Source of the DNA: Flammeovirgaceae bacterium
GTDB taxonomy: Bacteria; Bacteroidota; Bacteroidia; Cytophagales; Cyclobacteriaceae
Reading direction: 5' to 3'
DNA length: 43,708 nucleotides
NCBI GenBank assembly: GCA_021300095.1
Contig: JAJTHV010000212.1
Coordinates: 1 to 43,708 of the forward strand
Position 1 is the first letter of the stretch. Every line of letters starts with the position of its first letter. The position numbers and the translations under genes are program-made. Shown one piece after another: positions 9,041 to 27,045 of this stretch. A model generated the notes under the pieces. The model worked only from the letters and a program-made list of their open reading frames with translations. It searched no databases and was not told the origin of the DNA.

Positions 9041-11308
9041 TTAAAACCTAACTCGAACAGAGGCAGTGAAGCACCTTCCGTATCCATCAATACCCGATGC
9101 ATAAACCCGATAGGCTTTATCAAAAATATTTTGAGCCGAAACCTGAACGCCTACAAACTTATAGGTATAACCGGCATACATGCTAAAAATGTCCCATCCG
9201 GGCATCTGCTGGTTGATTAATCGAACAGCAATACGCACATCCGACTTATCGCCTGCTGCCAAACGTGATTGACTGTCCGCTATAGTCCACTCGGCACGCA
9301 TCCAAAAACCCGAAGGATGTGAATAGCGAATACCTAGTTTACAAAATAGGGGTGGAATTCTTCGCATCGGCTCATTCTTTGTTTGGTTTTGACCATGTGT
9401 GTACGTTACGTTTCCGTTCAGCGTAAGCGATGGCAATACTTGCATTTCAACATCGGCTTCAAAACCTTGGACAAGTGCTTCACCTACATTTTTCTTTTGA
9501 TACACCGTTCTTCCGTCAAATGTAGGCGAACCCAAATAGGTGGCGGGCACCCGATCAATTAAATCCGTAAGCTTCGTTTGATAGGCTGTGAATGTCCATG
9601 AAATCTTGGGAGATTTATATTTAAAACCTAATTCAACATTAGTTGAACGCTCTGGTGAAAGTCCGCTAGCTGGAATTTCAAAGACATTCGCCTCCAGCGT
9701 TCCAAACTTACTCATGTCGTCCACATTTGGAGCTCGAAAGCCAGTGTTCATATTGCCCATCATTCGCAATCGTGGACTGATTGAATACATCACGCCTGCA
9801 TTTCCTATGAATGCCTGAGGATTGATTTGCTGATCGCCAAATACATTATCCACCACCTGTACCACCACTGTATTCCATCTGGCTCCCGCTAAAAATTGAA
9901 ATCGCTTCCATTCGTATTGATGGTTGTTATATATCGCCCAGTTCATGCTCGTAGATCCATTGGCATAGGATCCGCGTTGTTTCGTTTCCAAGTTGGTAGT
10001 TGTATTCAAAACAACGGCTGTGCTTGAAACATCATCGCGATAATATTCCGCTCCGGATTGCATGCGCCAATGAGAACGAAGTTGCGATTGAATCTCAGCT
10101 ATTAGTCCAATCGTATTCACTTCATCATTTTGTGTTTTAAGGTCAACAGAATTATTTTTTTGGGAGATCGTACCTTCTACCGATCGATGAAGCGAAGCAG
10201 TTATTCGGAGTGATTGAATCCACGGACTTTGTGTTGCATGTTCCCATTTCGCATACGTCAATTGACGTGCTTGTGGTTCAAATTCATAGAGGCGAAAGCC
10301 ACCTTGAACAACCTGATCGAAACGCGGCACATGTTGTTGAGTGGTTTGCTGAAATGCAGTTGTAAAAACATCACCCCGTTTGGTTCGCATCAATAACTTT
10401 GCATCTGCCGAGCGTTCATCATAACCCGTTGGCCGTAAAAATCCCAAATTCCCACCGGCCAAAACATCGCCATAACTTCGCAGAGATAGCCCTCCTAAAA
10501 AAGTTATATTTCTGCATTGCACTTCCAACTCCGGGCGAATGCTTTTCTCCATGCCAGCACTCATCCATTTAGTCGAAAGCTCACCACGTATATTTACGCC
10601 TCCCGAACTAAAAGTGGGTGACTTTGAAATGATCTGAACTACTCCACCCAAGGCATCACTGCCATACAAAACGGATCCACTTCCACGATTCACTTCCATC
10701 CTGTCGATGAGCTGCGGGTCGATTGTTGAAAGATATTGGTTGGGGCCGTATCTGTACGTAGCGTTATTGAGTCGGATGCCATCTACTAGGAGGAGCACTT
10801 GATTGCCAACGAGTCCTCTGACTATGGGCGAACCCCCGCCATGATTGGTCTTTTGCACCCAAACTCCTGTTTGATTCATCAGTGCTTCCGGTGTGGTGCG
10901 TGCTTCATATTCTTTTAATTGCAAGGAAGAAATAGTGGTTGTTGATAATGCAACATCAAATGAAAGTCGTTCACTGCGTTGTGCGGTGATGGTTACATCA
11001 TTGTTGAGGAGAATAACAGAAGTGGTTAACTCAATTCGATTTTCGACATCTTTGCGTAGCATACGCTCGATGGTTGAGTAGCCTACTGCACTAACGCGAA
11101 CACGAACCGAATCAATTCGTTTTACATCTAAGTAAAAACGTCCCGAGGAATCGGAGGAAGTTCCGATGGATGATCCTAACACAACAACGTGCACTTCCGA
11201 AATAGGCTGCTGTGTAGTGCGGTCAGTAATCACACCCATGTATTGCGAAAGGGCCAGGTGACTGGATACCAGAAACAACAATGCCAACTGAAACTTGAAA
11301 TACTTCAC
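9041..11308 (-). CDS. TonB-dependent outer-membrane receptor
   Basis: The product is 755 residues long. A signal peptide (about 1-22) is followed by a carboxypeptidase-like regulatory domain (about 23-105, 'ISEVHVVVLGSSIGTSSDSSGRFYLDV'). The plug domain (about 125-235) has 'GGGSPIVRGLVGNQVLLLVDGIRLNNA' type features and 'GSGSVLYGSDALGGVVQI'. A 22-strand barrel follows, ending in FTASVRVRF with the terminal aromatic needed for BAM insertion. The plug resembles BtuB/siderophore receptors rather than SusC. The start codon is GTG. It begins nine bases after the stop of the YncE/phosphoesterase gene, so the two are one operon, which suggests import of something that enzyme releases (inference). 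Confidence 0.88.
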   Translation of the reverse strand: MKYFKFQLALLFLVSSHLALSQYMGVITDRTTQQPISEVHVVVLGSSIGTSSDSSGRFYLDVKRIDSVRVRVSAVGYSTIERMLRKDVENRIELTTSVILLNNDVTITAQRSERLSFDVALSTTTISSLQLKEYEARTTPEALMNQTGVWVQKTNHGGGSPIVRGLVGNQVLLLVDGIRLNNATYRYGPNQYLSTIDPQLIDRMEVNRGSGSVLYGSDALGGVVQIISKSPTFSSGGVNIRGELSTKWMSAGMEKSIRPELEVQCRNITFLGGLSLRSYGDVLAGGNLGFLRPTGYDERSADAKLLMRTKRGDVFTTAFQQTTQQHVPRFDQVVQGGFRLYEFEPQARQLTYAKWEHATQSPWIQSLRITASLHRSVEGTISQKNNSVDLKTQNDEVNTIGLIAEIQSQLRSHWRMQSGAEYYRDDVSSTAVVLNTTTNLETKQRGSYANGSTSMNWAIYNNHQYEWKRFQFLAGARWNTVVVQVVDNVFGDQQINPQAFIGNAGVMYSISPRLRMMGNMNTGFRAPNVDDMSKFGTLEANVFEIPASGLSPERSTNVELGFKYKSPKISWTFTAYQTKLTDLIDRVPATYLGSPTFDGRTVYQKKNVGEALVQGFEADVEMQVLPSLTLNGNVTYTHGQNQTKNEPMRRIPPLFCKLGIRYSHPSGFWMRAEWTIADSQSRLAAGDKSDVRIAVRLINQQMPGWDIFSMYAGYTYKFVGVQVSAQNIFDKAYRVYASGIDGYGRCFTASVRVRF

Positions 11309-11317
11309 GCTACTCGA

Positions 11318-14131: not shown

Positions 14132-14154
14132 AATTTTTACTTTAGGTTACATTT

Positions 14155-14187
14155 CAAATCTAAACAAACTTTTTCCTACTTATGCAA
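14155..14187 (-). promoter_or_regulatory. Bacteroidota-type promoter of the YncE/phosphoesterase operon
   Basis: Read on the minus strand, TAGATTTG (14155-14162) fits the -7 consensus TAnnTTTG and a TTG (14185-14187) lies 22 bases upstream as the -33 element. It is 24 bases from the start codon of the phosphoesterase gene. Confidence 0.45.
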
Positions 14188-14267
14188 TACTAACGTATTC
14201 CAAATAAGTCAAATACTGCACAACAAAGCAGATAAAATAAATTTCAAATCAATCATTCCGATCCGTT

Positions 14268-15356
14268 CTATTTACCTTTCATAGCAGAATTCAATACATC
14301 GCCTACTGGTTGTTCACTCGTATAATTTAATCCCATCAGCGCGGCCATCGTTTTGGCAATCTGCTTTTGATAAAACTGTCCGGACTTTACTTCGCCTAAT
14401 GCCGGTGTATCAGGGCCTAAAAATGCAAACCAGATTTGTGTAGCCTCGGGTATTTTTTGCCCATGGTGCTTCCATCCTTCCGCATCTGCCCCTCGGCCAT
14501 GATCGCATGTAATGATGATGGTTGTTTTGTTTTTGTAAGTTGGATCGGACTGAATGTAACTCCACAACTCCTCAATGAACCGGTCGGTGTAGTGAGCCGA
14601 ATTGAGGTAAGCTGCGTATTCCCCACCGTGTGCAAAGTCGTCTGTCTCATCAAAGGCAAAATACATCACGCGGGGCTTATTCTTTTTTATGTACTCCATT
14701 CCATAGTAAAATGTGAAAGCGTCTAAGCGTACATCTCCTAATGGATTAGGCAATGATTGCGTAAGCTGATTCATCATCTTCTCACGGTCGGTAAGGTTCG
14801 TATCTTTGCTGGGTTCCCAACCGGTGCTTACATACACACCACTTCGCTTATCGTTGATGATGTATGGAAAAACATCCCAAGAGGTGAACGCAGCCACTTT
14901 ATTTTTAAATGCCGGGAGTGAATTAAAATACTCTAAAACATTCTTATTGGGATTGTAAACTTTATCGTTGCTGTGAATTCGCTCATTATCTGCGCGGCCA
15001 GTTAAAATTTCGTTGTATCCCGGATATGAAAACAATTGATTGTTGGTTATATCTACTTTGCTACCAATAGCCCGATTGCCATACAACTGACCTTCGGTGG
15101 CAATTGTGTTCCAGAAAAAAGGAAACAAGGCTTTTCTGCGTTCGGTCAATTCATTGCGCCAATATTTTTCTTTTAGTTTTCCATCCTTCAAATATTTTTG
15201 CTGGCGCATAAATGAAGAATCCGCACCGTTGAATACTTCTTGCCAGCGCATGCCGTCCAATGTGATGAGAATGACATTTTCCGTTTTGGTTTTTTGTTGT
15301 GCGGGCACCAGTGTGTTAGCAAATAAAAATGCTATGAGTAAATAATATATTTTCAT
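14268..15356 (-). CDS. Alkaline-phosphatase-superfamily phosphodiesterase, NPP-like
   Basis: The 362-residue protein has a signal peptide (about 1-19, ending in VPAQ) and so acts in the periplasm or at the surface. It carries the metal and nucleophile motifs of the nucleotide pyrophosphatase/phosphodiesterase branch: 'LITLDGMRWQEVF' (D34); 'FSYPGYNEILTG' (S110 at the place of the NPP nucleophile Thr in 'TFPNHYTLVTG'); 'FDETDDFAHGGEY' (Asp and H243); 'TCDHGRG' (D285, H286); and 'KHHGQ' (H297/H298). Known members cleave phosphodiesters, phosphonate esters or, as in phosphonoacetate hydrolase, a C-P bond. It lies downstream of the SusC/SusD pair beyond a terminator, so it may be transcribed separately or by read-through. 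A role in releasing phosphonate or phosphate head groups is inference. Confidence 0.82.
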   Translation of the reverse strand: MKIYYLLIAFLFANTLVPAQQKTKTENVILITLDGMRWQEVFNGADSSFMRQQKYLKDGKLKEKYWRNELTERRKALFPFFWNTIATEGQLYGNRAIGSKVDITNNQLFSYPGYNEILTGRADNERIHSNDKVYNPNKNVLEYFNSLPAFKNKVAAFTSWDVFPYIINDKRSGVYVSTGWEPSKDTNLTDREKMMNQLTQSLPNPLGDVRLDAFTFYYGMEYIKKNKPRVMYFAFDETDDFAHGGEYAAYLNSAHYTDRFIEELWSYIQSDPTYKNKTTIIITCDHGRGADAEGWKHHGQKIPEATQIWFAFLGPDTPALGEVKSGQFYQKQIAKTMAALMGLNYTSEQPVGDVLNSAMKGK

Positions 15357-15415: not shown

Positions 15416-15456
15416 AATTTTGATTAAAACACGCAGCAGTAATAAAGTCTTGAAAA

Positions 15457-16974
15457 TTAATTCTTATCCCACCAAACCTGAGTGTTGATGTCATCCGCAC
15501 CTTGTCTTGTGACAGCTTCGCTTCTGTTGTTCGCATTTAGCGATTGTTCTGATTGAGGGTATATGTATCGAACAGGAATCAAGTTATTATTTAGATTACC
15601 GGCACCTGGTATAAGTACAGGCAATCCTGATCTGCGCCAATCTGTCCATGCCTCCAGTCCGTTAAAGAAAAGTGCTACCCACTTTTGTCTTGCTATCAGT
15701 TCCAACTTTTGCGATTGGGTTCCAGCATAAGCTACACTTGTCTGAGTAAAATAACCGCTCGGGAGAGTTAAATCAATACCATAAGAAGATGGAACGATGG
15801 AACGATAATAGTCAAAATTAGCATTTATTCCGTTGGTATAATATGTTTCTGCTACACCTGATGTTACAAGATTTTTTTCTCTTGCTTCAGCCAGAATAAA
15901 CTGTAGTTCTGAGTACGTCATGATTAAACCTCGTGATGCATTTGCTACAGGTGCGGTACTACTGCAAACTAAACAGGCGAATGTAAGTCCAACACGTGAT
16001 ACACCTTGTGGACCACCATTGTAACTCAAGGCTTGGGTATCCTCTAAGCCATTGGGTATTCCCTCAACTTTAGGAGTACCTGCTGTAACTGATGCTTCGG
16101 TAGGACGACCAAAAACTTGTAAGCGTGGATCGCCAATGCTGGTCAAGTAATCACCTAATGTTTTACTTAGCCTATATTCATCAAAAGAACCCACACGCGC
16201 AGTATATAATGGCCACTGATTAGGTGCTGCAGCCTGATAAACTAGTGCAGCGTTATCAGCATTGCTTGCAAAGATTGGATTTTGAGTAGCGTTGTCCAAA
16301 ATCGTTTGCATATCAGCCTTTACATCTCGCTTATTTGATATACGCATCAGATAACGAAGGCGAAGTGAGTTAGCTAGTTTTCTCCATTGAGTTACATTGC
16401 CATTGTAAATCAAGTCACCTGATACTGCCTCCGAGCTAGTTCCTAGAATTTCATTAGCCTTCTTCAAATCCGCTAAGATACCGTTGTAAATCGTTTCTTG
16501 TGTATCGTACTTAGGTGCAAAGTTGCCTGATAACTTTCCTTTAGTTGCATCTGTATACGGCACATCTCCATACGTATCTGTAACTATTGAAAACATCCAA
16601 GACTTGAGAATCAATGCTATTCCTAAATAATTGTTTTGAACTGGATTAGCTGATTCCGCGGCAGTAATTATATTTTGAACATTTCTTAAGTTACCAAACA
16701 CACTATTCCATACGCCAGTGCGCTCCCCCCACAAATAGCGGTCTTCATTTACAAATTGAATCTTGGCTGTGTGTTGAACCACTATATTACCGATACTCCA
16801 TGCTTCGTTTACCTGATCATTGATTGTGTTTCGAATAACCCCCGATAACAAAAGGTTCGGTGTAACCTCTGTCGGTACGTTCGGGTTCGTATTTACTTTT
16901 TCAAAGCCATCGTCACAAGAGACGGCTATAGACAAAGCAACAAATGCTGCAATATATTTTTTAAGACTTTTCAT
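15457..16974 (-). CDS. SusD/RagB-family nutrient-binding outer-membrane lipoprotein
   Basis: This 505-residue lipoprotein (signal MKSLKKYIAAFVALSIAVSC, C20) begins its mature part with 'DDGFEKVNTNPNVPTEVTPNLLLSG', the typical opening of the SusD-like-2 subfamily. The helical repeats and C-terminal 'QKLELIARQKWVALFFNGLEAWTDWRRSG' motif confirm the family. SusD proteins cap the SusC barrel and deliver ligand in a pedal-bin mechanism. Members of this subfamily are not restricted to glycans and also serve peptides and other solutes. The gene follows SusC by 20 bases and ends at a terminator. No glycoside hydrolase is nearby, whereas phosphonate genes are, so a phosphonate or phospho-compound ligand is plausible (inference). 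Confidence 0.92.
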   Translation of the reverse strand: MKSLKKYIAAFVALSIAVSCDDGFEKVNTNPNVPTEVTPNLLLSGVIRNTINDQVNEAWSIGNIVVQHTAKIQFVNEDRYLWGERTGVWNSVFGNLRNVQNIITAAESANPVQNNYLGIALILKSWMFSIVTDTYGDVPYTDATKGKLSGNFAPKYDTQETIYNGILADLKKANEILGTSSEAVSGDLIYNGNVTQWRKLANSLRLRYLMRISNKRDVKADMQTILDNATQNPIFASNADNAALVYQAAAPNQWPLYTARVGSFDEYRLSKTLGDYLTSIGDPRLQVFGRPTEASVTAGTPKVEGIPNGLEDTQALSYNGGPQGVSRVGLTFACLVCSSTAPVANASRGLIMTYSELQFILAEAREKNLVTSGVAETYYTNGINANFDYYRSIVPSSYGIDLTLPSGYFTQTSVAYAGTQSQKLELIARQKWVALFFNGLEAWTDWRRSGLPVLIPGAGNLNNNLIPVRYIYPQSEQSLNANNRSEAVTRQGADDINTQVWWDKN

Positions 16975-16994
16975 GATTGATGTTTTGCTATCAT

Positions 16995-19900
16995 TTAAAA
17001 TTTAAAACCAACATTGAATCCATAGCTTCTGGAAGAAGGTATAGACATATTCTCAATCCCTGGAAGAGCAGTACCACCAGTATAAGACATTACCTCGGGG
17101 TCAACATGTGGCACATTTGTCCAAAGAGCAAGGTTCCTTCCTACCAATGAAACAGTAACACTTTTAAAAGGCATTTTTCCAAAAACTTTGTCAGGAATGG
17201 TATAGCCGATCTGAAGTTCGCGTAGTTTCACAAATGATGCATCATACATTACGCCTTCCGCGATATTCCTACCACCCGTATAAGCCGTATGCCATTGGCG
17301 TGGCAATACGCGGTTTTCGTTTACTTTGAATGATCCATCGGGATTCTGGTTCACTCCGCTTCCAACCACATAGGTACCTATAGGTGCATTTAGCAAAAGT
17401 GGATCTGCTGTTGCCAGTGCTTGTGCATAATATCCATTTTCTCTTCCTTGAAGTGTCTCCATGATAATACCACCTTCTCTTCCCACAGTTTGGGTCTCCG
17501 AATAAATTTGACCGCCTTGACGAATATCAAACAACACGCTTAATTTTACACCTTTAAATGAAAACGAGCTATTAACACCAGCCATCCAATCAGGATTGTA
17601 ATTTCCTAATTTTATTCTGCTTGTAGTTGCTATTGGGCGGCCTCCTCCTTGTCCTTGTGCGTTGGGGTTTGAAAAAACTTGCTGGCCAACAAATTGACCG
17701 GTGGCATCATAATAAGGTTTAGTAGCGTCAGTGTTTTGCACGCGAGCATATCCAATGCCATACATATCCCCCATGCGTTCTCCAACTCGCGCTTCAATAG
17801 AAACTCGTCTAGTCGCAAGCACGTAATTGTTAAGTCCATTCGAAAGTGAAACCACTTCACTGCGATTGCTTGAGAAGTTTATATCCAGATTCCATTGAAA
17901 GCCATTGGAAAGTCTAACCGGTATTGTATTCAACATTACTTCAAAACCGTAGTTTTTGATCTCACCAGCATTTATTGATAAGCTATTGTATCCGCTCGTA
18001 ATTGAAAGTGGAATGTTCAGGATTTGATTCTTCGTCAAGGTTTGATAATATGTAAAATCCAACCCTAAACGATTTCCAAAAAAGCGAACATCAAAACCAC
18101 CCTCATAGGCTGTACTAATCTCTGGCTTCAAACTAAAGTTCGCCAAACGATCTGTCTCACCATATACTTGGGTAGATCCAAACGGATCACTCGGGTTGTA
18201 CGATTGTGTAAAGGTAAAGGCATCCGTATCATTTCCAACTTGTGCTACACTGGCACGAGCTTTAGCAAACGAAATGAATTCGGGCAATTCAACCATATCC
18301 GATACTACCGCACTCAACGCAGCTGATGAGTAGAAATAAGAATTATTCTCTGAGCCAATACCCGCGTCTTTCAAGGCCTTTGGCAACGTCAACGCACTTG
18401 ACCAGTCATTTCGGGCTGTCAGGTCGAGATATAAAACATTCTTGTAACCAAGCTGCGCTGAACCGTACAAACTATTAATACTCTTTTGCACATCCGATTG
18501 GGAGCTTTGCAAAGCTGCTCTGAAGTTTGTTAAATTATAAACGCCCGGGATATTTAACTGAGGTGCATTTATTTCTAAAAATTCAGACTTTTGACGTAGC
18601 TGATTTCCACCGAACGAAGCCGTTAATGTCAATACGGATGGCACGATCTCCTTATTGAAGGTCAACAAGAAATCACTATTTCTTTCTTCCGTTACTATGT
18701 TTGTTTCACGGTATTGACCAAAAGGGAAACGTTGTGTACTAAAGGCTCTTTTGTATTGACGTCTTTCATTACCATAATCTAGTGCAGTACGTAACTGAAG
18801 ACTCAGCCAAGACGTGAAATCATACTTTAAAGAAATGTTACCTATGATGCGATCCACATTTTGACCATTGGTATTTTCGTAGACAGTAAAATAAGGGTTG
18901 TCATGATAGTTATAATTCCAACCAAACTGCCTTGTACCTTCTAAACCCGGCATCCAATAATTTCTAAGTGACTCCATATCCACTGAGCGAGGCAACCAAC
19001 AATTGAACAAATACATGATGTTTTCTGTGCCATAGCTTATTGATGGACGATTGCCGCTTTCGCTCTTAATGTAACTGACAAAGGCTCGTGCCGAAAATTT
19101 ATCTGTCAAATTATAACCACCTCCAAACGACACAGTATTTCTTTTTAAATCTGTGTTAGGAACAATGCCTGTTTGATCAAGGCCAGTATAAGAAAGTCTA
19201 AAATCACCATTCTTATTACTTCCAACGAGTGCAACATTATTTGTGAAAGTCCTCCCTATCTGGAAAAAATTCTTCACTCCATCCTTATCATTCTTCCAAA
19301 GCGTGGGAGTTATTACACTTCCTGCTGGGGCATTAAGATCACCACCTCTAAATGCAATAGGTGCGCCATTCAGCGTTCTAGGAGAATTAAACTGTGCATA
19401 TAGTTGACCATTGAAAGCAGGACCCCAGCTTTCATCTGTACCGTCTGTTAAACCTGCGCCCCCACCATTAACGAATGCAAAATCTCCACCATTGCCGTTA
19501 CCTTGTCCATAAACATTTTGGTAATCCGGTAAGCGAAGAGCAGACTCAAAAGTTGTATTTGAATTGACTTCTACTCCGATTCCCTTAGTGCCACGTCCAG
19601 ATTTTGTTTTGATAACAATTACACCATTGGCTGCCCGTGAACCATATAAAGCAGATGCCGCGGCTCCTTTGAGCACAGTCATTGATTCAATATCATCGGA
19701 GTTGACAAAACTTGCACCATTGCCAAAATCTACCTCAAGGTTGCTTCGTCCAGAACCGCCTGTAATACCATTGCTGATAGGTACTCCATCAATTACATAT
19801 AAAGGTTGATTTGCATTAAGATTCAACGACCGTTCACCCCGAATCGTAACCCTAGAGGATCCTCCAACGCCTGAGTTGCTACCAATTACTGTTACTCCAG

Positions 19901-20378
19901 CTATCTTTCCAGCTAATTGATTAGAGATGTTCGTCTCCCTCGCGGTAGTCAATGAACTGCCATCAACGCTTTGTATAGCATATCCTAAACTCTTCTTCTC
20001 CTTTTCAACTCCCAAAGCTGTAACAACCACCTCTGAAAGCTGTTTTGCGTCAGCCAATAATTCTACATTAAATGAAGTACGGCCTGCTACTGCAATCTCT
20101 TGCGTTGTATACCCAACAAACGAGAACACCAAAACATCATTTGCTGAGTTCATGGTTACCACGAAATTTCCGTCTGCATCGGTAATCGTGCCATTTGTAG
20201 TTCCCTTCACCAAAATGTTAACGCCCGGCAGTGGACTTTGATCTTCCCCGGAAAGCACTCTTCCGGAGACCGAATACTGTGCCATGGCAGCGGTAGCTGT
20301 CATGATCATAAACAAAACTGGCAGTAGTCCCTGTACCAGAAGTTGCTTACGAAATTTTAATTGTAAAAATTGAAGCAT
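16995..20378 (-). CDS. SusC/RagA-family TonB-linked outer-membrane transporter
   Basis: The 1127-residue protein has a signal peptide (about 1-33, ending in AAMAQ). A carboxypeptidase-like domain ('SGRVLSGEDQSPLPGVNILVKG', about 35-115) is followed by the conserved SusC segment 'LSEVVVTALGVEKEKKSLGYA' containing the TonB box. The plug (about 125-250) has 'SNQLAGKIAGVTVIGSNSG', 'VTIRGERSL', 'PLYVIDGVPI' and 'MTVLKGAAASALYGSRAANGVI'. A large barrel ends in 'SRSYGFNVGFKF'. Together with the SusD gene 20 bases downstream it forms an energy-dependent importer. It is transcribed divergently from an HTH-cupin regulator and the phosphonate-type enzyme genes; the 261-base gap between them holds two palindromes. 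Confidence 0.94.
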   Translation of the reverse strand: MLQFLQLKFRKQLLVQGLLPVLFMIMTATAAMAQYSVSGRVLSGEDQSPLPGVNILVKGTTNGTITDADGNFVVTMNSANDVLVFSFVGYTTQEIAVAGRTSFNVELLADAKQLSEVVVTALGVEKEKKSLGYAIQSVDGSSLTTARETNISNQLAGKIAGVTVIGSNSGVGGSSRVTIRGERSLNLNANQPLYVIDGVPISNGITGGSGRSNLEVDFGNGASFVNSDDIESMTVLKGAAASALYGSRAANGVIVIKTKSGRGTKGIGVEVNSNTTFESALRLPDYQNVYGQGNGNGGDFAFVNGGGAGLTDGTDESWGPAFNGQLYAQFNSPRTLNGAPIAFRGGDLNAPAGSVITPTLWKNDKDGVKNFFQIGRTFTNNVALVGSNKNGDFRLSYTGLDQTGIVPNTDLKRNTVSFGGGYNLTDKFSARAFVSYIKSESGNRPSISYGTENIMYLFNCWLPRSVDMESLRNYWMPGLEGTRQFGWNYNYHDNPYFTVYENTNGQNVDRIIGNISLKYDFTSWLSLQLRTALDYGNERRQYKRAFSTQRFPFGQYRETNIVTEERNSDFLLTFNKEIVPSVLTLTASFGGNQLRQKSEFLEINAPQLNIPGVYNLTNFRAALQSSQSDVQKSINSLYGSAQLGYKNVLYLDLTARNDWSSALTLPKALKDAGIGSENNSYFYSSAALSAVVSDMVELPEFISFAKARASVAQVGNDTDAFTFTQSYNPSDPFGSTQVYGETDRLANFSLKPEISTAYEGGFDVRFFGNRLGLDFTYYQTLTKNQILNIPLSITSGYNSLSINAGEIKNYGFEVMLNTIPVRLSNGFQWNLDINFSSNRSEVVSLSNGLNNYVLATRRVSIEARVGERMGDMYGIGYARVQNTDATKPYYDATGQFVGQQVFSNPNAQGQGGGRPIATTSRIKLGNYNPDWMAGVNSSFSFKGVKLSVLFDIRQGGQIYSETQTVGREGGIIMETLQGRENGYYAQALATADPLLLNAPIGTYVVGSGVNQNPDGSFKVNENRVLPRQWHTAYTGGRNIAEGVMYDASFVKLRELQIGYTIPDKVFGKMPFKSVTVSLVGRNLALWTNVPHVDPEVMSYTGGTALPGIENMSIPSSRSYGFNVGFKF

Positions 20379-20614: not shown

Positions 20615-20631
20615 GTTTACAAATAGTAAAC
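20615..20631. promoter_or_regulatory. Operator candidate just upstream of the HTH-cupin regulator
   Basis: A perfect inverted repeat GTTTAC-N5-GTAAAC ends eight bases before the regulator's ATG at 20640. Position and symmetry fit autoregulation by a dimeric HTH_3-type repressor. No second identical copy was noticed in the window. Confidence 0.5.
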
Positions 20632-20639
20632 AACCATTT

Positions 20640-21215
20640 ATGATTCATGAAGAATTGATCACCCTTGTTGCGAAGAGAATCAAAGCATTACGTCTTGAAA
20701 AAGGAATTACACTTCAAACGCTGAGTGAGCGCACCAACCTCACCAAAGGGCTTATTTCCAAAATTGAAAACACGCGAACAATCCCTTCGCTACCCGTATT
20801 CTTTACTTTAATACAATCCCTGGAGATCAAGCCAAGTGAATTTTTTGACGCGATGAACCTTAATAAAAACCAATCTTATCTTCATTTTAAGAAGAAAGAA
20901 TATCGGCAAATCAAAAAAGAAGACAGGCCCGGATTTGAATACAAGCACATCTTTGCACACTCCTTACAAAGTTGCACGATGGAAACTGTGATGCTATCTA
21001 TCAAACCTCATGCACAGTCTAAACCCACTACCACCGATGGATTTGAATTTAAATACATCGTTTCAGGCGACTGTGATTATTATATTAATGATGCCAAAAT
21101 TGCTTTGCGCGAAGGCGATTCCGTTTTTTTCGATGCTTCGCAACCTCATTACCCAATCAATAACTCTAAACGAAAAGTGGTGATGTTGGTCATTTATTTT
21201 CTAACCCTGAAATAA
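20640..21215 (+). CDS. HTH (XRE) transcriptional regulator with C-terminal cupin domain
   Basis: The protein has 191 residues. Residues 13-67 form an HTH_3 domain ('RIKALRLEKGITLQTLSERTNLTKGLISKIE' pattern followed by 'NTRTIPSLPVFFTLIQSL'). Residues about 115-190 form a cupin barrel with 'DGFEFKYIVSGDCDYYIN' and 'LREGDSVFFDASQPHYPINN', a sensor domain usually binding a small metabolite. Such regulators often control neighbouring catabolic genes. It is divergent from SusC/SusD and heads a plus-strand series with the FAD oxidoreductase 63 bases downstream, so it likely controls both the importer and the catabolic genes in response to a substrate or intermediate (inference). An inverted repeat adjacent to its start suggests autoregulation. 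Confidence 0.88.
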   Translation: MIHEELITLVAKRIKALRLEKGITLQTLSERTNLTKGLISKIENTRTIPSLPVFFTLIQSLEIKPSEFFDAMNLNKNQSYLHFKKKEYRQIKKEDRPGFEYKHIFAHSLQSCTMETVMLSIKPHAQSKPTTTDGFEFKYIVSGDCDYYINDAKIALREGDSVFFDASQPHYPINNSKRKVVMLVIYFLTLK

Positions 21216-21278
21216 ATTCGCCATTCAGTAACTCACAGGTAACAAAGTTTAAGCATATTGAGCCATTTATTTTAGGTT

Positions 21279-22436
21279 ATGCAAAACCATTTCGATGTAA
21301 TTGTTGTCGGTGCCGGTGTTCTCGGTACATTCCATGCCTACCATGCAGCTCGCTTAGGCAAAAAAGTATTACTCACCGAAAAAGATCAATATCCTACGCA
21401 AGCTACCGTTCGTAATTTCGGACAAGTGGTTCCCTCCGGCATGGGCAGTGAATGGTTTAACTATGGATTGAAAGGCATTGAAACCTATCGGCAAATTCAA
21501 TCCGAGTTTGACATTTCTATTCGAAACAATGGCAGCGTTTACATCGCATCCGATGATAACGAAGTTCAGCTAATCCATGAGTTGAAAAAAGTAATGGACG
21601 ACCGAAGCTACGAAGCTCAATTATTGTCTACGAATCAATGTCTTGAAAAATGGTCTGCGTTAGATCCTAATTATTGTAAAGAAGCCCTCTTTTTTCCGCA
21701 AGAGCTAAGTGCAGAACCTGAAACGCTTATTCATCGCCTTCTTATATATATCACCCAAAAATTTCCTCAGTTTACGTATCATCCGTCTACGACTATAATT
21801 GATTGTGAAGTGAACGGAGATCATGTAAATGTAGTTAGTCATCTAAAAGAAAAATTTACAGCCGATCATGTGATTGTTTGCAATGGAGGTGAATTCAAAT
21901 TGCTTTTTGGTAATTTCTTCAAAAGCAGCGGCATCATCATTAGCAAGCTACAAATGCTACGCACTAGACTCATGCCTCAAATAGATTTGGAAGGCAATAT
22001 CCTAACGGGCCTCACCATACGCAGGTATGAGTCATTTCAGGAATGCCCTTCGTATCAATTGCTATCCACCCCCGAACACCTCACTGAATTAAAAAAATGG
22101 GGGATTCACGTTCTATTCAAAAAGGCAATCGATGGATCGATCATCATTGGCGACTCGCATGAATATGCCGAGGCGCACCAAACAGATGACCTTGGCTTTT
22201 CGCAGAACGAATACATCAACCAACTCATGTTGAATGAAGCCAAACGAATTGTTACTTTTGACGTGACACAAATTGCGCACAGCTGGTCGGGGTTTTATCC
22301 GCAGCACAACGAAAAGGATATAGTCGAAATGGACATTGAAAATAGAATTCATATTCGCACCGCAATTGGCGGAAAGGGGATGACCACATCTGCAGGCTAT
22401 GCCGAGGAGAGTGTAGCGAAAATTTTAAAACCCTGA
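21279..22436 (+). CDS. FAD-dependent oxidoreductase, phosphonate-associated (TIGR03364 type)
   Basis: This 385-residue flavoenzyme of the DAO/glycine-oxidase superfamily has an N-terminal FAD-binding motif 'VVGAGVLGTFHAYHAARLGKKVLLTEKD' type fold (residues about 9-36). The family-specific segment 'ATVRNFGQVVPSGMG' follows at 42-56. The C-terminal part 'HSWSGFYPQHNEKDIVEMD' and 'IRTAIGGKGMTTSAGYAEE' closes the flavin site. The family is linked by gene context to phosphonatase-like hydrolases and is thought to oxidatively deaminate (or N-dealkylate) aminophosphonates such as 2-aminoethylphosphonate derivatives or 1-hydroxy-2-aminoethylphosphonate, giving a phosphonoacetaldehyde-type product. 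The phosphonatase-like hydrolase at 24576-25259 supports this here. The PHP gene begins two bases after its stop. No signal peptide, so it acts in the cytoplasm. Confidence 0.85.
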   Translation: MQNHFDVIVVGAGVLGTFHAYHAARLGKKVLLTEKDQYPTQATVRNFGQVVPSGMGSEWFNYGLKGIETYRQIQSEFDISIRNNGSVYIASDDNEVQLIHELKKVMDDRSYEAQLLSTNQCLEKWSALDPNYCKEALFFPQELSAEPETLIHRLLIYITQKFPQFTYHPSTTIIDCEVNGDHVNVVSHLKEKFTADHVIVCNGGEFKLLFGNFFKSSGIIISKLQMLRTRLMPQIDLEGNILTGLTIRRYESFQECPSYQLLSTPEHLTELKKWGIHVLFKKAIDGSIIIGDSHEYAEAHQTDDLGFSQNEYINQLMLNEAKRIVTFDVTQIAHSWSGFYPQHNEKDIVEMDIENRIHIRTAIGGKGMTTSAGYAEESVAKILKP

Positions 22437-22438
22437 CC

Positions 22439-23287
22439 ATGTGGGCTAATTACCATACCCACAGCAACTATTGCGATGGCAAAAGCACCTTCGATCAACA
22501 CATCGAAAAAGCAAAACAACTGCATTTAAAAGCACTGGGATTTTCATCGCACGCTCCAGTGCCATTTGAATGCTTGTGGTGCATGAAGGCTAATCGGCTG
22601 GATAATTACCTCACAACCATTCAAAATTTAAAATCACACTCTCAGGCAATTGAAATTTACGCTGGATTAGAAGTAGATTTTATTCCACACGTGATTGGCC
22701 CAAGTCATTTTTCAAATCACCTCGATTATACCATTGGGTCCATACATTTTGTCGATTGCTATGAAAATGGAACTCATTGGGAAATTGATGGGCTACATAC
22801 CGGTTTTCTGGATGGTTTAGAGAAAATTTTCAAAAACGATTATCAGCATGCCTTCACCCGCTACTTCGAGTTAACGCGTGAAATGCTACAAAAAGATTGC
22901 CCAACTGTAATTGGGCACCTGGATAAAATGAAAATTCAGAATGAAGGCAATAAGTTTTTTTCAGAAAATGAAATCTGGTATCAGCAACAGGTAAAAGAAA
23001 CCATTTTAGCCATTGCAAAAACCAACGCCATTGTGGAAGTAAATACGAGAAGCATTTACCAGAAAAAATCGGATACCACCTACCCGAGTCCTTGGATATT
23101 GGAGTTACTTCTGGACGCCAACATACCCATTACGCTCAGCTCAGATGCACATCATGCCGATGATCTGGTGAATCAATTTGAAAATTCAGCCCGATTGCTA
23201 CGCGCGATCGGCTATAAAAAAATTCACATTCTGTATCGTGGTGAGTGGAAACCGTTTAACTTTAGTGAAAAAGGAATCGAATTTTGA
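22439..23287 (+). CDS. PHP-domain phosphatase, histidinol-phosphatase-like
   Basis: The 282-residue cytoplasmic protein carries a complete PHP trinuclear metal site: 'YHTHSNYCDGKST' (H6, H8, D13), 'SSHAPVPF' (H38), 'GLEVDFIP' (E78), 'GSIHFVD' (H103), 'IGHLDKMKIQ' (H160) and 'SSDAHHADD' (D236, H238). The overall form is that of the HisJ/HisK-like family, which removes phosphate from histidinol phosphate, but the gene is not in a histidine operon. It begins two bases after the FAD oxidoreductase and its stop overlaps the transporter start by three bases. Its job may therefore be linked to the phosphonate substrate, for instance hydrolysis of a phosphonate or phosphate ester (inference). A housekeeping histidinol phosphatase captured in the operon is the alternative. 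Confidence 0.82.
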   Translation: MWANYHTHSNYCDGKSTFDQHIEKAKQLHLKALGFSSHAPVPFECLWCMKANRLDNYLTTIQNLKSHSQAIEIYAGLEVDFIPHVIGPSHFSNHLDYTIGSIHFVDCYENGTHWEIDGLHTGFLDGLEKIFKNDYQHAFTRYFELTREMLQKDCPTVIGHLDKMKIQNEGNKFFSENEIWYQQQVKETILAIAKTNAIVEVNTRSIYQKKSDTTYPSPWILELLLDANIPITLSSDAHHADDLVNQFENSARLLRAIGYKKIHILYRGEWKPFNFSEKGIEF

Positions 23288-24579
23288 AACCGACACCATC
23301 TCTGATCAACAGCTGGCTGAAACAAACGCATGGCATCTGGTTTACCATCTATGCATCGTTGGCCGCATTTTGTTTATATACATGTGTTTATGCTTTTCGT
23401 AAAACATTTGCAGCTGCCACTTTCGAGGGATTATTTTTTGCAGGCATCAGCTACAAAGTATGGTTAGTCACCTTTCAGGTAATTGGTTATGCGCTTTCCA
23501 AATTTATCGGCATCAAAGTTATTTCTGAATTGAAAGCACATTCACGTGCTTTTGGTATCTTACTGATGGCGGGAATTGCAGGCGTTGCCTGGCTTTTGTT
23601 TGCACTGGTTCCGGCTCATTACCACATTGTTTTTCTTTTCCTGAATGGGCTTCCGCTTGGCATGGTGTGGGGAGTGGTATTTGGAGGTCTGGAAGGCAGG
23701 CGAATGACCGAAGTGCTGGGCGCTTCGCTTGCTGTGAGTTTCATTTTCTCTGCCGGCTTGTGCCGATCCGTAGGGGCTTACATCATGCGCGATTGGGGTA
23801 CATCTGAATACTGGATGCCCTTTGTAACAAGTGCTCTATTCACCTTACCGCTTTTGCTTTTTTTATACCTTCTCGATCAGTTACCTCCGCCCTCGGAGCT
23901 AGACGAAAAATTACGCACGAAGCGTGCCCCCATGAATGCCCAGGAGCGCAAAGACTTTACGTCCACCTTCTTGCCAGGCATTATCTTATTCGTTCTCGCG
24001 TATGTTTTGCTGACTTCCTTTCGGGATTTTAGAGATAATTTCTCAGCCGAGATCTGGAAGTCATTAAATATGGGCAATGACCCCTCCATCTATACCAGCA
24101 CCGAAGTGCCAGTTTCGATTATCGTGTTGGTTTGCATGGGCAGCTTAATGCTCATCAAAAACAATCAACTCGCATTGATGGTCAACCACGTCATCATTGC
24201 ATTGGGAATGGTATTGATTGGTGTGGCGAATTATTTATTTCAATTGCAGATGATTGAACCCAAAACGTGGATGGTGCTGATTGGATTGGGTTTATACCTT
24301 GGCTACATACCTTTCAATAGTATTTTCTTCGATCGACTGATAGCAGCCTTCCAATACACGGGCACAGTTGGATTTATAATGTATGTAGCTGATTCGTTTG
24401 GATACTTGGGAAGCGTGAGTGTTCTTTTCTTCAAAGAGTTTGGCCACGCAAATTTGAGCTGGCTCAACTTCTTTATTTCTGGTGGATACATTGTTTCCGC
24501 TACCGGCACGTTGCTGATAACAGGGTCAATGATTTACTTTCACTATAAGCATAAATCCTGGACAGCCGAGTTGCGTTAA
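23284..24579 (+). CDS. DUF5690-type MFS transporter, resembling organophosphate:phosphate antiporters
   Basis: The 431-residue inner-membrane protein has about 11-12 hydrophobic helices. It starts with TTG at 23284, overlapping the PHP stop; AAGGA lies eight bases upstream and no earlier ATG fits. The sequence matches my recollection of DUF5690, a Bacteroidota membrane family. The first helix 'CVYAFRKTF' (R39-K40) followed by 'VIGYALSKFIG' resembles GlpT/UhpT ('VRKNF ... YGFSKFIMG'), where the first Arg binds phosphate. A second candidate lies near helix 7, 'LLTSFRDFRDNF' (R247, R250), at about the place of the second GlpT substrate Arg. This suggests uptake of a phosphorylated or phosphonate solute (inference). 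It is convergent with, and overlaps by four bases, the phosphonatase-like gene. Confidence 0.8.
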   Translation: MKPTPSLINSWLKQTHGIWFTIYASLAAFCLYTCVYAFRKTFAAATFEGLFFAGISYKVWLVTFQVIGYALSKFIGIKVISELKAHSRAFGILLMAGIAGVAWLLFALVPAHYHIVFLFLNGLPLGMVWGVVFGGLEGRRMTEVLGASLAVSFIFSAGLCRSVGAYIMRDWGTSEYWMPFVTSALFTLPLLLFLYLLDQLPPPSELDEKLRTKRAPMNAQERKDFTSTFLPGIILFVLAYVLLTSFRDFRDNFSAEIWKSLNMGNDPSIYTSTEVPVSIIVLVCMGSLMLIKNNQLALMVNHVIIALGMVLIGVANYLFQLQMIEPKTWMVLIGLGLYLGYIPFNSIFFDRLIAAFQYTGTVGFIMYVADSFGYLGSVSVLFFKEFGHANLSWLNFFISGGYIVSATGTLLITGSMIYFHYKHKSWTAELR

Positions 24580-25259
24580 TTTTCAATTCCAACGATTTGT
24601 AAAACTTGCGGAATTTGTTGAATAATATGTGTGTGTGGTGCCGCAGCTAATTGTTCGTGTGTAAATGCTCCGGAAGTAATTCCAATCACAAATCCACAAC
24701 CGGCAGCGGTACCCTCGCCTAAGTCAGAAAGCGTATCTCCTACTTTTGCCACGCGCTTTGCATCCGCTATACCTGCCCGTTTCATTGCTTTAAAAATCAT
24801 ATCCGGATGTGGCCTTCCATTTTCCACCTCATCACTGGTGATGCTACCGTCAATCAACCCATTCGTTTCCCATGCCATGCGTGCTAAAAGTGCATTTACG
24901 ATGGGGCGATCAAAACCGGTATCTACCATTACTTTTATCCCCTGCTCCTTCAATTTTCTAAAGGTTTCGCTCACACCTTGATTTTCTTCTACCGTTGAAT
25001 CATTTTGATAGAACGCAATCATGGAACTGACAAAATCCGAATGAATCTGCTCAACAAAAGAATTAGATATGTCGGGATAGTTCAAGGCTTCAAGCAGCTG
25101 TGTAATTGCCACCGGTTTCGGAATACCCATTACCTTATTGGCTTGCTCAATGGTAATCGATACCCCTACCTTCTCAAATGAATTTTTAAGAACACGCTGC
25201 ACATCGAAATTTTCTTTTACCGTTGTTCCGGCAAGGTCAAACACAATCAGGTCAATCAT
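24576..25259 (-). CDS. Phosphonatase-like HAD hydrolase (PhnX-like, TIGR03351 type)
   Basis: I start this 227-residue protein at the ATG at 25259 (MIDLIVFDLAGTT); an upstream in-frame ATG at 25298 would add 13 residues before the fold begins. The HAD nucleophile loop reads 'FDLAGTTVKE' (D8, A10), the DxAGT form special to phosphonatases. The cap has 'VMGIPKPVAITQLL' with K48 at the place of the Schiff-base lysine of PhnX. 'VDTGFDRPIV' is motif II, and 'KRVAKVGDTLSDLGEGTAAG' has Arg in place of the usual HAD Lys and the metal-binding Asp. These features fit hydrolysis of the C-P bond of phosphonoacetaldehyde or its hydroxy derivative. It is tail-to-tail with the transporter, sharing TTAA. PhnW is absent; the FAD enzyme at 21279 is the likely substrate supplier. 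Confidence 0.87.
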   Translation of the reverse strand: MIDLIVFDLAGTTVKENFDVQRVLKNSFEKVGVSITIEQANKVMGIPKPVAITQLLEALNYPDISNSFVEQIHSDFVSSMIAFYQNDSTVEENQGVSETFRKLKEQGIKVMVDTGFDRPIVNALLARMAWETNGLIDGSITSDEVENGRPHPDMIFKAMKRAGIADAKRVAKVGDTLSDLGEGTAAGCGFVIGITSGAFTHEQLAAAPHTHIIQQIPQVLQIVGIEN

Positions 25260-25398
25260 AGCATCTTGAAATTTGAAACAAGAAGGAAATAAAATCATCC
25301 ATTTCCATCCATTACCTCACGAATTAATTATTTCTTAACGTGTCCGTGTCGCTATGTTGGTAGCACAACACTACCTTGAAAGACTAAAAAAAAATTAA

Positions 25399-25971
25399 AT
25401 GACACCACAAGATACCATTCATGAGATATTCGCTTTGTATGAAAAATATGGCCATGAAGATTATATTGGAGAAGCCATTTCACAAATCGAACACATGTCG
25501 CAGGCCGCTCAGCTAGCCATTGAAGGTGGGTTTGATGATGAAGTGATTTTAGCTGCCTTCTTCCATGATATTGGGCACATTTGCGTCAGCCGAAACGCGG
25601 CTAACAATATGGGTGGTTTCGGTGTCAAGAGCCATGAGAAAATCGGAGCCGATTACTTACGCGAAAAAGGATTTTCCGAACGCATTGCCAAGCTGGTAGA
25701 AAACCATGTTGAGGCAAAGCGCTACCTCACTTTTCGATATCCTGAGTATTATAATAATCTTTCGGAGGCAAGTAAGCGAACCTTGGAATATCAGGGTGGT
25801 AAGATGACAGCCGAAGAAGCTGATGTGTTTGAGCAAGATTCGCTTTTCGAAGCCAGCATTCAATTAAGAAAATGGGACGAGTTAGCAAAGGAGATTGAGA
25901 CTCCCTTAATCGACTTGGAAATAATAAAGGCCAAAGCAACAAGTGCCTTGGCCTCTACATTCAGAAACTAG
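25399..25971 (+). CDS. phnZ: PhnZ-type HD-domain mixed-valence di-iron oxygenase
   Basis: The 190-residue HD-domain protein shows the complete signature of PhnZ, which uses O2 to split 1-hydroxy-2-aminoethylphosphonate into glycine and phosphate. 'DYIGEAISQIEH' supplies the substrate-gating Tyr and Glu (Y22, E25) and first iron ligand H32. 'FFHDIGH' supplies H56 and D57, 'SHEKIGADYL' supplies H79, 'ENHVEAKRYL' supplies H103, and 'RKWDELAKE' supplies D160. These match the spacing of the characterised enzyme. Ordinary HD phosphohydrolases lack the Tyr/Glu pair. The usual partner PhnY (an oxoglutarate dioxygenase making the hydroxylated substrate) is not in the window, so the substrate may be taken up ready-made or PhnY lies elsewhere. 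The gene is divergent from the phosphonatase-like gene. Confidence 0.88.
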   Translation: MTPQDTIHEIFALYEKYGHEDYIGEAISQIEHMSQAAQLAIEGGFDDEVILAAFFHDIGHICVSRNAANNMGGFGVKSHEKIGADYLREKGFSERIAKLVENHVEAKRYLTFRYPEYYNNLSEASKRTLEYQGGKMTAEEADVFEQDSLFEASIQLRKWDELAKEIETPLIDLEIIKAKATSALASTFRN

Positions 25972-27038: not shown

Positions 27039-27045
27039 AGCTTTA

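Follow-up and report, generated by a model that had tools for sequence, protein, structure and literature searches.

A SusC/SusD pair within a probable phosphonate utilization locus of a Flammeovirgaceae bacterium and its repeated exchange among relatives

SusCD pairs usually serve the import of sugars. SusCD complexes for organic phosphorus, named PusCD, have been described in Flavobacterium by Lidbury et al. (ISME J, PMC8115612), with six forms of PusD and, in some cases, with phosphonate-degrading enzymes in the same clusters. The hydrolytic PbfD2-PhnX pathway of 2-aminoethylphosphonate (AEP) was reported by Zangelmi et al. (iScience 2023, PMC10590968), and the described AEP transporters comprise AepXVW, AepSTU and AepP, the 2AEP permease of Murphy et al. 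(Nat Commun 2021, PMC8316502). The route by which phosphonates cross the outer membrane is an open question in the field, as is the range of larger phosphonate molecules consumed in nature. AepXVW, AepP and AepSTU are inner-membrane systems. Since free AEP is of a size that can pass porins, the import of AEP itself would not obviously need a SusCD pair.

The window analyzed in this study is a stretch of 43,708 nucleotides from contig JAJTHV010000212.1 of a Flammeovirgaceae bacterium (Cytophagales), in which positions 9041–25971 hold 11 genes (Table 1), all at the positions and of the kinds given in the original prediction. Gene families were assigned with Pfam and NCBIfam profiles by scanning the 20 proteins between 5477 and 30306. 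The genes for SusC, SusD, the NPP-like hydrolase, the YncE/phosphoesterase (YncE/PE) and the TonB-dependent receptor (TBDR) form a minus-strand run with gaps of 20, 100, 136 and 9 bp, and those for the HTH-cupin regulator, the TIGR03364 flavoenzyme (FAD), the PHP-domain protein and DUF5690 form a plus-strand run with gaps of 63, 2 and -4 bp. As predicted, the SusC/SusD pair stands without a carbohydrate enzyme, since no glycoside hydrolase was found among the 20 scanned proteins, and the CAZymes beside SusCD that characterize a PUL are thus missing from this region. Just outside the locus, a kelch protein (25977–27059) matched PF24996 (N-acetylneuraminate epimerase) with 57 bits against a cut-off of 45, the sole carbohydrate-type match among the scanned proteins.

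Table 1. Features of the phosphonate locus and the evidence for their assignment.
Feature	Position	Strand	Evidence
TonB-dependent receptor, non-SusC type, last gene of minus-strand run	9041..11308	-	PF00593, PF07715, PF13715
Lipoprotein-like YncE propeller + PF04185 phosphoesterase, 937 aa	11318..14131	-	TIGR02276; PF04185 29.4 bits
Secreted alkaline-phosphatase-superfamily hydrolase (PafA/NPP/sulfatase fold)	14268..15356	-	PF00884/PF01663
SusD-like surface lipoprotein (type A)	15457..16974	-	PF12771 347 bits; phylum and family searches
SusC/RagA TonB-dependent importer	16995..20378	-	TIGR04056 639 bits
Exchange cassette, susC plug + barrel to susD stop	15445..20001	-	blastn breakpoints, core tree
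Predicted operator GTTTAC-N5-GTAAAC	20615..20631	+	exact inverted repeat
HTH-cupin regulator (PuuR-like)	20640..21215	+	PF01381 + PF07883
TIGR03364 (PbfD-type) FAD-dependent aminophosphonate oxidase, predicted	21279..22436	+	345.9 bits vs cut-off 285.1
PHP-domain (HisJ-like) phosphoesterase, putative	22439..23287	+	PF02811; TIGR01856 126.5 vs 90.2
DUF5690 MFS permease, predicted organophosphate/phosphonate antiporter	23284..24579	+	PF18943 549 bits
PhnX-like phosphonatase (HAD)	24576..25298	-	TIGR03351 209.7 bits, under cut-off 218.9
PhnZ-type HD-domain phosphonate oxygenase, predicted	25399..25971	+	TIGR03276 219.7 vs cut-off 214.6

We consider it likely that this stretch is a self-contained, PUL-like phosphonate utilization locus, in which SusCD imports an organophosphonate and the enzymes degrade it. 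The locus resembles the PusCD/PUS clusters, where a SusCD-like pair without CAZymes lies beside phosphomonoesterases or phosphodiesterases and an inner-membrane organic-P transporter (PMC8115612); here, SusCD is co-localized with phosphoesterases, phosphonate enzymes and a predicted organic-P transporter, again without CAZymes. It differs from those clusters, as described in that source, in its complete PhnW-free aminophosphonate pathway (TIGR03364, PhnX-like, PhnZ and DUF5690) and its occurrence in other families, as well as in the tie of one SusD subfamily to the pathway, the predicted operons of susCD with C-P genes and the exchange of the SusCD module. The claim that SusCD systems for phosphonates are not well described is therefore weaker than originally stated, since PusCD complexes, some of them beside phosphonate enzymes, are already known (PMC8115612). 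With a SusCD pair linked to a complete PhnW-free C-P pathway, the passage of phosphonates through the outer membrane can be studied by experiment in Bacteroidota that grow in culture (Terrimonas, Sediminibacterium, Spirosoma and Chryseolinea).

The link between SusCD and the phosphonate genes is not a coincidence limited to a single genome. SusC/SusD was found in 23 of the 27 TIGR03364 neighborhoods of the window's genus, a count that includes L062 with a truncated SusD and L123 with a split one; the remaining four are cut by contig ends. In the family, adjacent SusC-SusD pairs were found in 69 of 117 neighborhoods, a count of adjacent pairs only that leaves out contig-end fragments (e.g., L027–L029, L035, L044, L062 and L080); the other 48, some of them cut by contig ends, had no adjacent pair within 9.4 kb. 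SusD shares one co-directional run (gaps ≤200 bp) with at least two of the FAD, DUF5690, PhnX and PhnZ genes in 29 distinct loci, drawn from 43 runs in 42 loci (L156 contributing two), as in Terrimonas L203, where the order is susC-susD-MBL-like-NPP-PhnZ-PhnX-DUF5690-FAD with gaps of 23, 79, 1, 6, 6, 37 and 15. Predicted operons linking susCD with phosphonate genes occur in three families, and these apparent single operons suggest that the pair probably imports phosphonates rather than glycans. All six SusD homologues found in a phylum sample at E≤1e-150 lay within 5 kb of TIGR03364, compared with none of eight weaker homologues. With 12 SusC at E≤1e-80 in the 4.66 Mb of the bacterium's own genome, a 20-kb stretch would contain a SusC by chance in an estimated ~6% of cases, and this expectation is higher in those relatives with at least 16 SusC matches, a number reached in 29 of 39 genomes.

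The genes flanking SusCD, two on each side in 156 distinct loci (564 slots), were mostly phosphatases and C-P genes: NPP filled 79 slots, TIGR03364 FAD 61, HTH-cupin 42, YncE/PE 41, DUF5690 26, metallophosphatase 23 and PhnZ-like 20. Glycan-type genes were rare, yet present; in 94 other neighbor-cluster representatives, GH95, GH92 and GH65-N occurred once each, sulfatase four times and 3-keto-disaccharide hydrolase twice among the matches listed (25 of 109 Pfam families). These data, together with the operons, support the placement of SusCD in the phosphonate locus, and the opposite outcome, SusCD accompanied in relatives by glycan enzymes instead of phosphonate genes, was not observed. A glycan PUL was rejected, as neither the window locus nor its relatives showed a regular CAZyme link. 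Homologues of DUF5690 were found in 106 of 116 fetched family loci, of the PhnX-like protein in 100, of HTH-cupin in 77, of the PHP-domain protein in 30 and of YncE/PE in 15, and some phosphonate loci also carry a PC-type phospholipase C homologue or PbfA. Because 12 pairs of loci have identical SusD (L145–L155 repeat family-set genomes and L224 repeats L221), the 116-locus counts, the 51/68 count for the NPP gene, the alignment rows numbering 79, 100 and 131 and the 36/80 type-A count given below include repeated loci, whereas the 156-locus, 31-locus and 35/68 type-A counts exclude them.

The importer itself proved exchangeable. SusC residues 1–126 (signal + CarbopepD_reg_2) are conserved in close relatives, and the plug and barrel belong to a cassette that, together with SusD, gives way to a different pair in L105, L120 and L123. 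In blastn comparisons, homology to L105 and L120 breaks off at 15445 and sets in again at 19999–20001; that to L123 resumes at 19971, the other end lying beyond its contig. On the core tree, SusC (plug + barrel)-SusD was swapped for a pair about 35% identical at least five times, five being the fewest on one tree with 15 of 28 inner branches starred. Type B, the replacement with an unrelated SusD, was present in 20 of 80 hand-picked genomes (41 with TIGR03364 and 39 without); 17 of these 20 SusD lay in the TIGR03364 region, and none of the 39 genomes without TIGR03364 had type B. Based on loci with an adjacent pair, the combinations of SusCD type and FAD subfamily were A/window-like 11, A/other 38, B/window-like 13, B/other 7 and C/other 1; the types do not follow the division into two FAD subfamilies and thus give no clue to the ligand. 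The exchange resembles that of RagAB in Porphyromonas gingivalis, whose SusCD-type alleles are exchangeable while the N-terminus of RagA (signal + CarbopepD_reg_2) is highly conserved (PMC11817032). It differs from RagAB in that the two SusC types here are ~35% identical and spread over many species of one family in a phosphonate cluster.

Concerning the degradative enzymes, the TIGR03364 protein scores over its cut-off and has a phosphonatase partner, which places it with the PbfD-type flavoenzymes. Two C-P cleaving enzymes had been predicted beside SusCD, and this held for the PhnZ-type protein, which passes TIGR03276 and retains, at 0.97–1.00 (100 rows), H32, H56, D57, H79, H103 and D160, which we take to be the six HD/metal ligands. 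The phosphonatase fell just short of TIGR03351, although this was its best NCBIfam model of all; its Asp21 and Lys61, presumably the HAD nucleophile and the Schiff-base residue of PhnX chemistry, were conserved at 1.00 (131 alignment rows), so that the residues characteristic of PhnX are present. No PhnY hydroxylase partner was found among the 20 proteins scanned between 5477 and 30306. In the bacterium's own genome, a 92% complete draft, neither PhnW (E≤1e-10) nor PhnJ was found; a C-P lyase was accordingly rejected, as was phosphonate biosynthesis, since a PEP-mutase-like protein reached 43.6 bits, far under the cut-off of 319.55. The absence of PhnW and PhnJ from this draft is consistent with the PbfD2-PhnX route, which likewise combines a TIGR03364/PbfD flavoenzyme and a phosphonatase without PhnW (PMC10590968). 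The main text of that paper contains none of the terms 'SusC', 'Bacteroid' and 'DUF5690', and such an importer or permease is therefore not treated in it.

The NPP-like hydrolase (structure model pLDDT 90.1) had sulfatases as its top Foldseek rows and PafA as its best VIA match (Z 29.6, rmsd 3.3 over 300), followed by NPP Xac (26.6), ENPP7 (26.2) and the phosphonate monoester hydrolase 2w8s (25.1), scores so close together that they do not separate a monoesterase from a diesterase. D34, S110, D239, H243, D285, H286 and H298 are conserved at 1.00 (79 rows), with Ser110 probably being the nucleophile. In 51 of 68 loci, the NPP gene follows SusD on its downstream side within 1.5 kb. Of the 31 named loci that carry two or more core phosphonate genes, repeats excluded, 12 have the YncE/PE + TBDR pair.

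The DUF5690 model (pLDDT 90.7) matched SLC37 G6P transporters at Foldseek ranks 1–8 and GlpT at rank 17, with VIA Z scores of 33.2 for SLC37A4 and 31.8 for the D-galactonate symporter. A PDB sequence search returned no match, and sequence homology to GlpT was rejected, as hhalign aligned only a short local stretch with a probability of 1.8%, so that the likeness to GlpT and SLC37 is one of fold. In this weak alignment, R39 pairs with GlpT R45; R39 is arginine in 117 of 125 rows and a gap in the other 8, and R247 is kept in all 125. DUF5690 is a separate Pfam family and is by family set apart from AepP (PMC8316502). No paper on DUF5690 was found in the open-licence PMC literature, and the phosphonate locus would give this family a predicted function as an organic-P/phosphonate permease.

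In the mechanism that we infer for every substrate and transport direction, SusC/SusD would bind an organophosphonate and import it actively into the periplasm, the ligand most likely being an aminophosphonate conjugate (a lipid head group or another ester). The secreted NPP/PafA-like enzyme, perhaps with the YncE-phosphoesterase, would release a small (amino)phosphonate, which the organophosphate:Pi-antiporter-like DUF5690 may carry to the cytoplasm. There, the TIGR03364 flavoenzyme would convert AEP or N-methyl-AEP into phosphonoacetaldehyde, the PhnX-like phosphonatase would split this into acetaldehyde and Pi, and the PhnZ-type oxygenase may cleave hydroxylated phosphonates. It is quite possible, and we suggest it tentatively, that SusCD serves phosphonate conjugates such as AEP lipid head groups, imported intact, cut in the periplasm and cleaved at the C-P bond inside, with the importer as an exchangeable plug-in behind the constant SusC N-terminus and the phosphonate core held constant. 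If this is true, swapping between unrelated SusCD versions would adapt the locus to different carriers of phosphonate.

The two halves of the locus also occur apart. As 27 of 33 TIGR03364 genomes of the phylum sample have no SusD at E≤1e-150, the pathway does not depend on this SusCD. Conversely, 36 of 80 named type-A loci (23 of them ≥18 kb), or 35 of 68 with repeats excluded, carry none of the four core genes; among 22 such genomes tested, TIGR03364 was found elsewhere in 15 and not at all in 7. SusD matches at E≤1e-140 numbered 85, of which 45 fell wholly or partly in fetched regions, and the 20 neighborhoods read from the other 40, several on short contigs, had at least two core genes in 2 cases, one in 3 and none in 15. 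The unlinked SusCD of Chitinophaga and Dyadobacter, and one genus of the family with type-A SusCD beside phospholipase C and ethanolamine-permease-like genes and without phosphonate genes, count against strict phosphonate specificity.

It is possible, if somewhat doubtful, that SusCD is a general importer of organic phosphorus (glycerophosphoethanolamine-type head groups and phosphodiesters), of which the phosphonate genes exploit the phosphonate fraction. A phospholipase C homologue (cluster 15) directly follows type-A SusCD in seven TIGR03364-set loci (L027–L030, L035, L044 and L061) and in the non-phosphonate loci L138, L140 and L142–L144, the L140 member passing TIGR03396 (758.7 against 580). 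The ethanolamine-permease-like gene of these non-phosphonate loci (truncated at the region end and scoring under the cut-off), their gamma-glutamyl-amine-type enzymes, as read for L140, the nearby PafA/NPP-like enzyme, PhoX and metallophosphatases, and the PusCD precedent (PMC8115612) point the same way. However, the closest SusD homologues of the phylum sample adjoin TIGR03364 without exception, and C-P enzymes and DUF5690 are among the commonest linked genes.

SusCD systems generally move oligomers, which would fit the import of a phosphonate-decorated glycan (an AEP-substituted polysaccharide) with its sugar parts used elsewhere, as would the glycan sulfatases leading the Foldseek matches of the NPP-like model and its likeness to 2w8s; we regard this as unlikely, given the window locus without glycoside hydrolases and the single GH95, GH92 and GH65-N among the listed matches. 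That a glycan or peptide SusCD merely adjoins the phosphonate cluster is already disfavored and very improbable, for although SusC is numerous in many relatives and the pair unlinked in some, predicted operons recur in three families, linkage is retained genus-wide through at least five swaps of SusCD type, and type B occurs, among the 80 genomes, only in those with TIGR03364.

The phosphonate cluster may be controlled by the HTH-cupin protein, which matched the PuuR model with 34.6 bits, far under the cut-off of 211, through the inverted repeat before its own gene. The predicted operator ends 8 bp before the HTH-cupin start, has no second copy in the window and gives the candidate target sequence GTTTACAAATAGTAAAC. 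A perfect palindrome was absent from 10 of 25 intergenic rows, L105 included, and one further stretch, from L062, had a perfect palindrome of unrelated sequence. In the remaining 14 of the 25 stretches, a perfect 6+6 palindrome with GTNNNC arms lies 1–19 bp before the HTH start and its arms covary; in 300 shuffles, any perfect palindrome appeared in a mean of 0.45 and a maximum of 3 of 25 stretches, an excess that is not a probability, since the null shuffles mononucleotides and the 25 rows are related.

The eleven genes of the original prediction proved real and correctly placed, as judged from open reading frames and profile matches. The minus-strand run comprises susC-susD-NPP-YncE/phosphoesterase-TBDR, where NPP is an alkaline-phosphatase-superfamily hydrolase and TBDR a TonB-dependent receptor (gaps of 20, 100, 136 and 9 bp), and the plus-strand run, divergent from susC, holds the HTH-cupin, TIGR03364 FAD, PHP and DUF5690 genes (gaps of 63, 2 and -4 bp); beyond DUF5690 lie a PhnX-like gene (minus) and then a PhnZ-type gene (plus). 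The matches of the TIGR03364 FAD enzyme and the TIGR03276 PhnZ were both above the curated cut-offs, and TIGR03351 was the best model for the phosphonatase-like hydrolase, yet 9 bits under its cut-off. Among rows from relatives, which include a few repeated genomes, D21 and K61 of the PhnX-like protein (131 rows) and D34, S110, D239, H243, D285, H286 and H298 of NPP (79 rows) were conserved at 1.00, and H32, H56, D57, H79, H103 and D160 of the PhnZ-like protein (100 rows) at 0.97-1.00; we take these positions to be catalytic residues. Reading by eye, the N-terminal regions of SusD (SIAVSC) and the YncE protein (LFSC) are lipobox-like, and that of NPP is signal-like.

Features of the window and of loci in relatives (L numbers)
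Feature	Position	Strand	Remarks
ECF sigma factor	7276-7836		just past TBDR end of locus
TonB C-terminal-domain protein	8248-8946		just past TBDR end of locus
NPP	14268-15356	-	
Exchange cassette	15445-20001		susC plug and barrel with susD; sharp breakpoints against L105, L120, L123
SusD	15457-16974	-	
SusC	16995-20378	-	
Inverted repeat	20615-20631		GTTTAC-N5-GTAAAC; perfect; ends 8 bp before HTH-cupin start
HTH-cupin	20640-21215	+	
FAD enzyme	21279-22436	+	
DUF5690	23284-24579	+	
Kelch and DUF4270 lipoproteins	25977-28446		downstream
Phospholipase C locus	L140:6509-19909		type-A SusCD
Secreted-looking protein, 434 aa	L213:11603-12907		directly after SusD
Calcineurin-like phosphoesterase, 558 aa	L037:6259-7935		beside SusCD

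TIGR03364 was present in 117 of the 390 genomes of the window's family, which we call Cyclobacteriaceae in the GTDB sense; this family code includes Chryseolinea serpens (SusD identical in L052 and L151), placed by NCBI in Fulvivirgaceae, Cytophagales. The predicted co-occurrence in Bacteroidota was borne out: with neighbourhoods of ±9.4 kb taken from the 116 other genomes, an adjacent SusC-SusD pair lay in 69 of 117, and among 395 genomes drawn across the phylum, 33 had TIGR03364 and 14 had the SusD kind of the window (type A, E<=1e-90); the six strongest SusD matches (E<=1e-150) were all within 5 kb of TIGR03364. None of the eight weaker SusD (41-50% identity) was so placed. SusC/SusD occurred in 23 of the 27 neighbourhoods of the window's own genus, and the other four (L053, L055, L066 and L094; 6.8-10.7 kb) were all ended by contig ends; the HTH gene is cut in L053, and another contig of that genome (L126) carries the remaining part of an HTH gene with SusC-SusD-NPP. 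The window genome has 12 SusC at E<=1e-80, so that a SusC would be expected by chance in about 6% of 20-kb stretches; at least 16 SusC matches were found in 29 of 39 relatives tested.

At 42 loci one or more of four core genes (FAD, DUF5690, PhnX-like, PhnZ-like) lay in a co-directional run with SusD (same-strand genes, gaps <=200 bp), and at 29 loci two or more did; these 29 comprise 7 in the window's family, 3 in Spirosoma (Cytophagaceae in NCBI) and 19 in Chitinophagaceae and MAGs mostly so titled. The clearest runs, in Terrimonas (L203) and Pollutibacter (L213), read susC-susD-(MBL-like)-NPP-PhnZ-PhnX-DUF5690-FAD. None of the core genes was found in 36 of the 80 named type-A SusD loci (35 of 68 without repeated loci); among 22 such genomes, TIGR03364 lay elsewhere in 15 and was absent from 7 (six Chitinophaga, one Longitalea), and the Dyadobacter and Chitinophaga loci inspected had the type-A pair alone among housekeeping-type genes. 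Type-A SusD at E<=1e-150 was absent from 27 of the 33 TIGR03364 genomes of the phylum sample. Therefore, in many lineages the SusCD pair is linked with phosphonates, but it may accept a wider range of ligands.

In the nearest relatives the cluster has about 78-87% DNA identity to the window, yet a different SusCD (type B, SusC types about 35% identical). Homology to L105 and L120 ends at 15445, just beyond the susD stop, and restarts at 19999-20001 (at 19971 against L123), which sets the inner breakpoint within susC after about residue 126, between CarbopepD_reg_2 (37-119) and the plug (from 128). The protein segments agree with these breakpoints, since SusC identity to L105 was 67% over residues 1-36, 78% over 37-126 and 50, 33 and 29% over plug and barrel, against 42%, 74% and 97, 93 and 90% for L108. 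On a DUF5690+PhnX+PhnZ+PHP tree (31 rows) the type changes at least five times, the type-A window grouping with type-B L123 at 100/99 and with type-B L105 and L120 at 100/100. Among 80 hand-picked genomes, type-B SusD occurred in 20, in 17 of them in the TIGR03364 region, in two (G343, G306) on other contigs where the TIGR03364 contig ends, and in one (G136) elsewhere; it was found in none of the 39 picked genomes without TIGR03364. The replacement SusD is thus itself tied to the phosphonate locus, and, since two different importers fill one slot, there is good reason to think that an importer is needed there. The exchange mode is not new, as P. gingivalis RagAB alleles likewise combine a conserved N-terminus with a variable remainder (PMC11817032).

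According to PMC10590968, PbfD enzymes (TIGR03364) produce phosphonoacetaldehyde by oxidising N-methyl-aminoethylphosphonate and aminoethylphosphonate (AEP), and together with PhnX they take the place of PhnW. In the window genome, a 4.66-Mb draft that is 92% complete, neither PhnW (E<=1e-10) nor PhnJ was found. The DUF5690 model was confident (pLDDT 90.7); SLC37 glucose-6-phosphate transporters took Foldseek ranks 1-8 and GlpT the 17th, and with VIA SLC37A4 was top (Z 33.2, rmsd 3.2, 362 aligned), a galactonate symporter being close (31.8). The known AEP permease AepP is GlpT-related (PMC8316502). In the open-licence PMC literature, we found no paper on DUF5690 or on a phosphonate SusCD with a shown ligand.

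The NPP model (pLDDT 90.1) has an alkaline-phosphatase-superfamily fold; Foldseek listed sulfatases first, and with VIA the best match was PafA (Z 29.6, rmsd 3.3 over 300 aligned), followed by SPAP, bacterial NPP and ENPP7, while ENPP6 and phosphonate monoester hydrolase scored not far below. As NPP lies <=1.5 kb downstream of SusD in 51 of 68 loci, a natural order would be that SusCD imports the ligand, NPP cleaves it, DUF5690 passes the product into the cytoplasm and the C-P bond is cleaved inside the cell. The very involvement of a TonB-driven pair points to a ligand bigger than AEP. A phospholipase C homologue (phosphocholine-type, TIGR03396; 758.7 against a cut-off of 580 in the scanned member, L140) follows SusD in seven TIGR03364-set loci (L027-L030, L035, L044, L061), and in a relative genus, read for L140, type-A SusCD and this enzyme stand instead beside ethanolamine-permease-like and gamma-glutamyl-amine-type genes, the NCBIfam matches other than the phospholipase being all under cut-offs. 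From these neighbours, aminoethyl-phospho/phosphono head groups are our leading guess for the SusCD ligand. No phosphonate genes lie in the L140 locus, which also has glutamine-synthetase-like, aldehyde dehydrogenase and Fe-ADH genes; it resembles a phosphatidylethanolamine version of the phosphonate locus.

In one family group (L136), the run starting susC-susD-NPP gains PbfA (NF049939, 614 against a cut-off of 525 in member L074) and PhoX; in predicted operons of L136 and L080, SusD-NPP-PhnX is joined by PbfA, PhoX and metallophosphatases. The secreted-looking protein of L213 is conserved (cluster 14, 13 loci), its sole match being a weak metallo-beta-lactamase (E 0.015), and the calcineurin-like phosphoesterase recurs in phosphonate loci (cluster 10, 40 loci).

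The inverted repeat is the predicted operator for the HTH-cupin regulator. Of 25 intergenic stretches, 14 have a perfect palindrome with GTNNNC arms 1-19 bp before the HTH-cupin gene, and its arms covary (GTTTCC/GGAAAC, GTCAAC/GTTGAC); a fifteenth has an unrelated perfect palindrome and ten have none. Shuffled stretches gave any perfect palindrome in a mean of 0.45 and a maximum of 3 of 25 (300 trials). The TonB C-terminal-domain protein and ECF sigma factor are a possible dedicated energiser or regulator of the locus. The lipoprotein genes, with no evident phosphonate link, are kept in 9 of 116 loci, the Kelch protein exceeding the cut-off of PF24996, an N-acetylneuraminate epimerase model (57 against 45 bits). 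The FAD slot (L009-L124) is filled by either of two FAD subfamilies (44-90% and 26-34% identical to the window protein), independently of the SusCD type.
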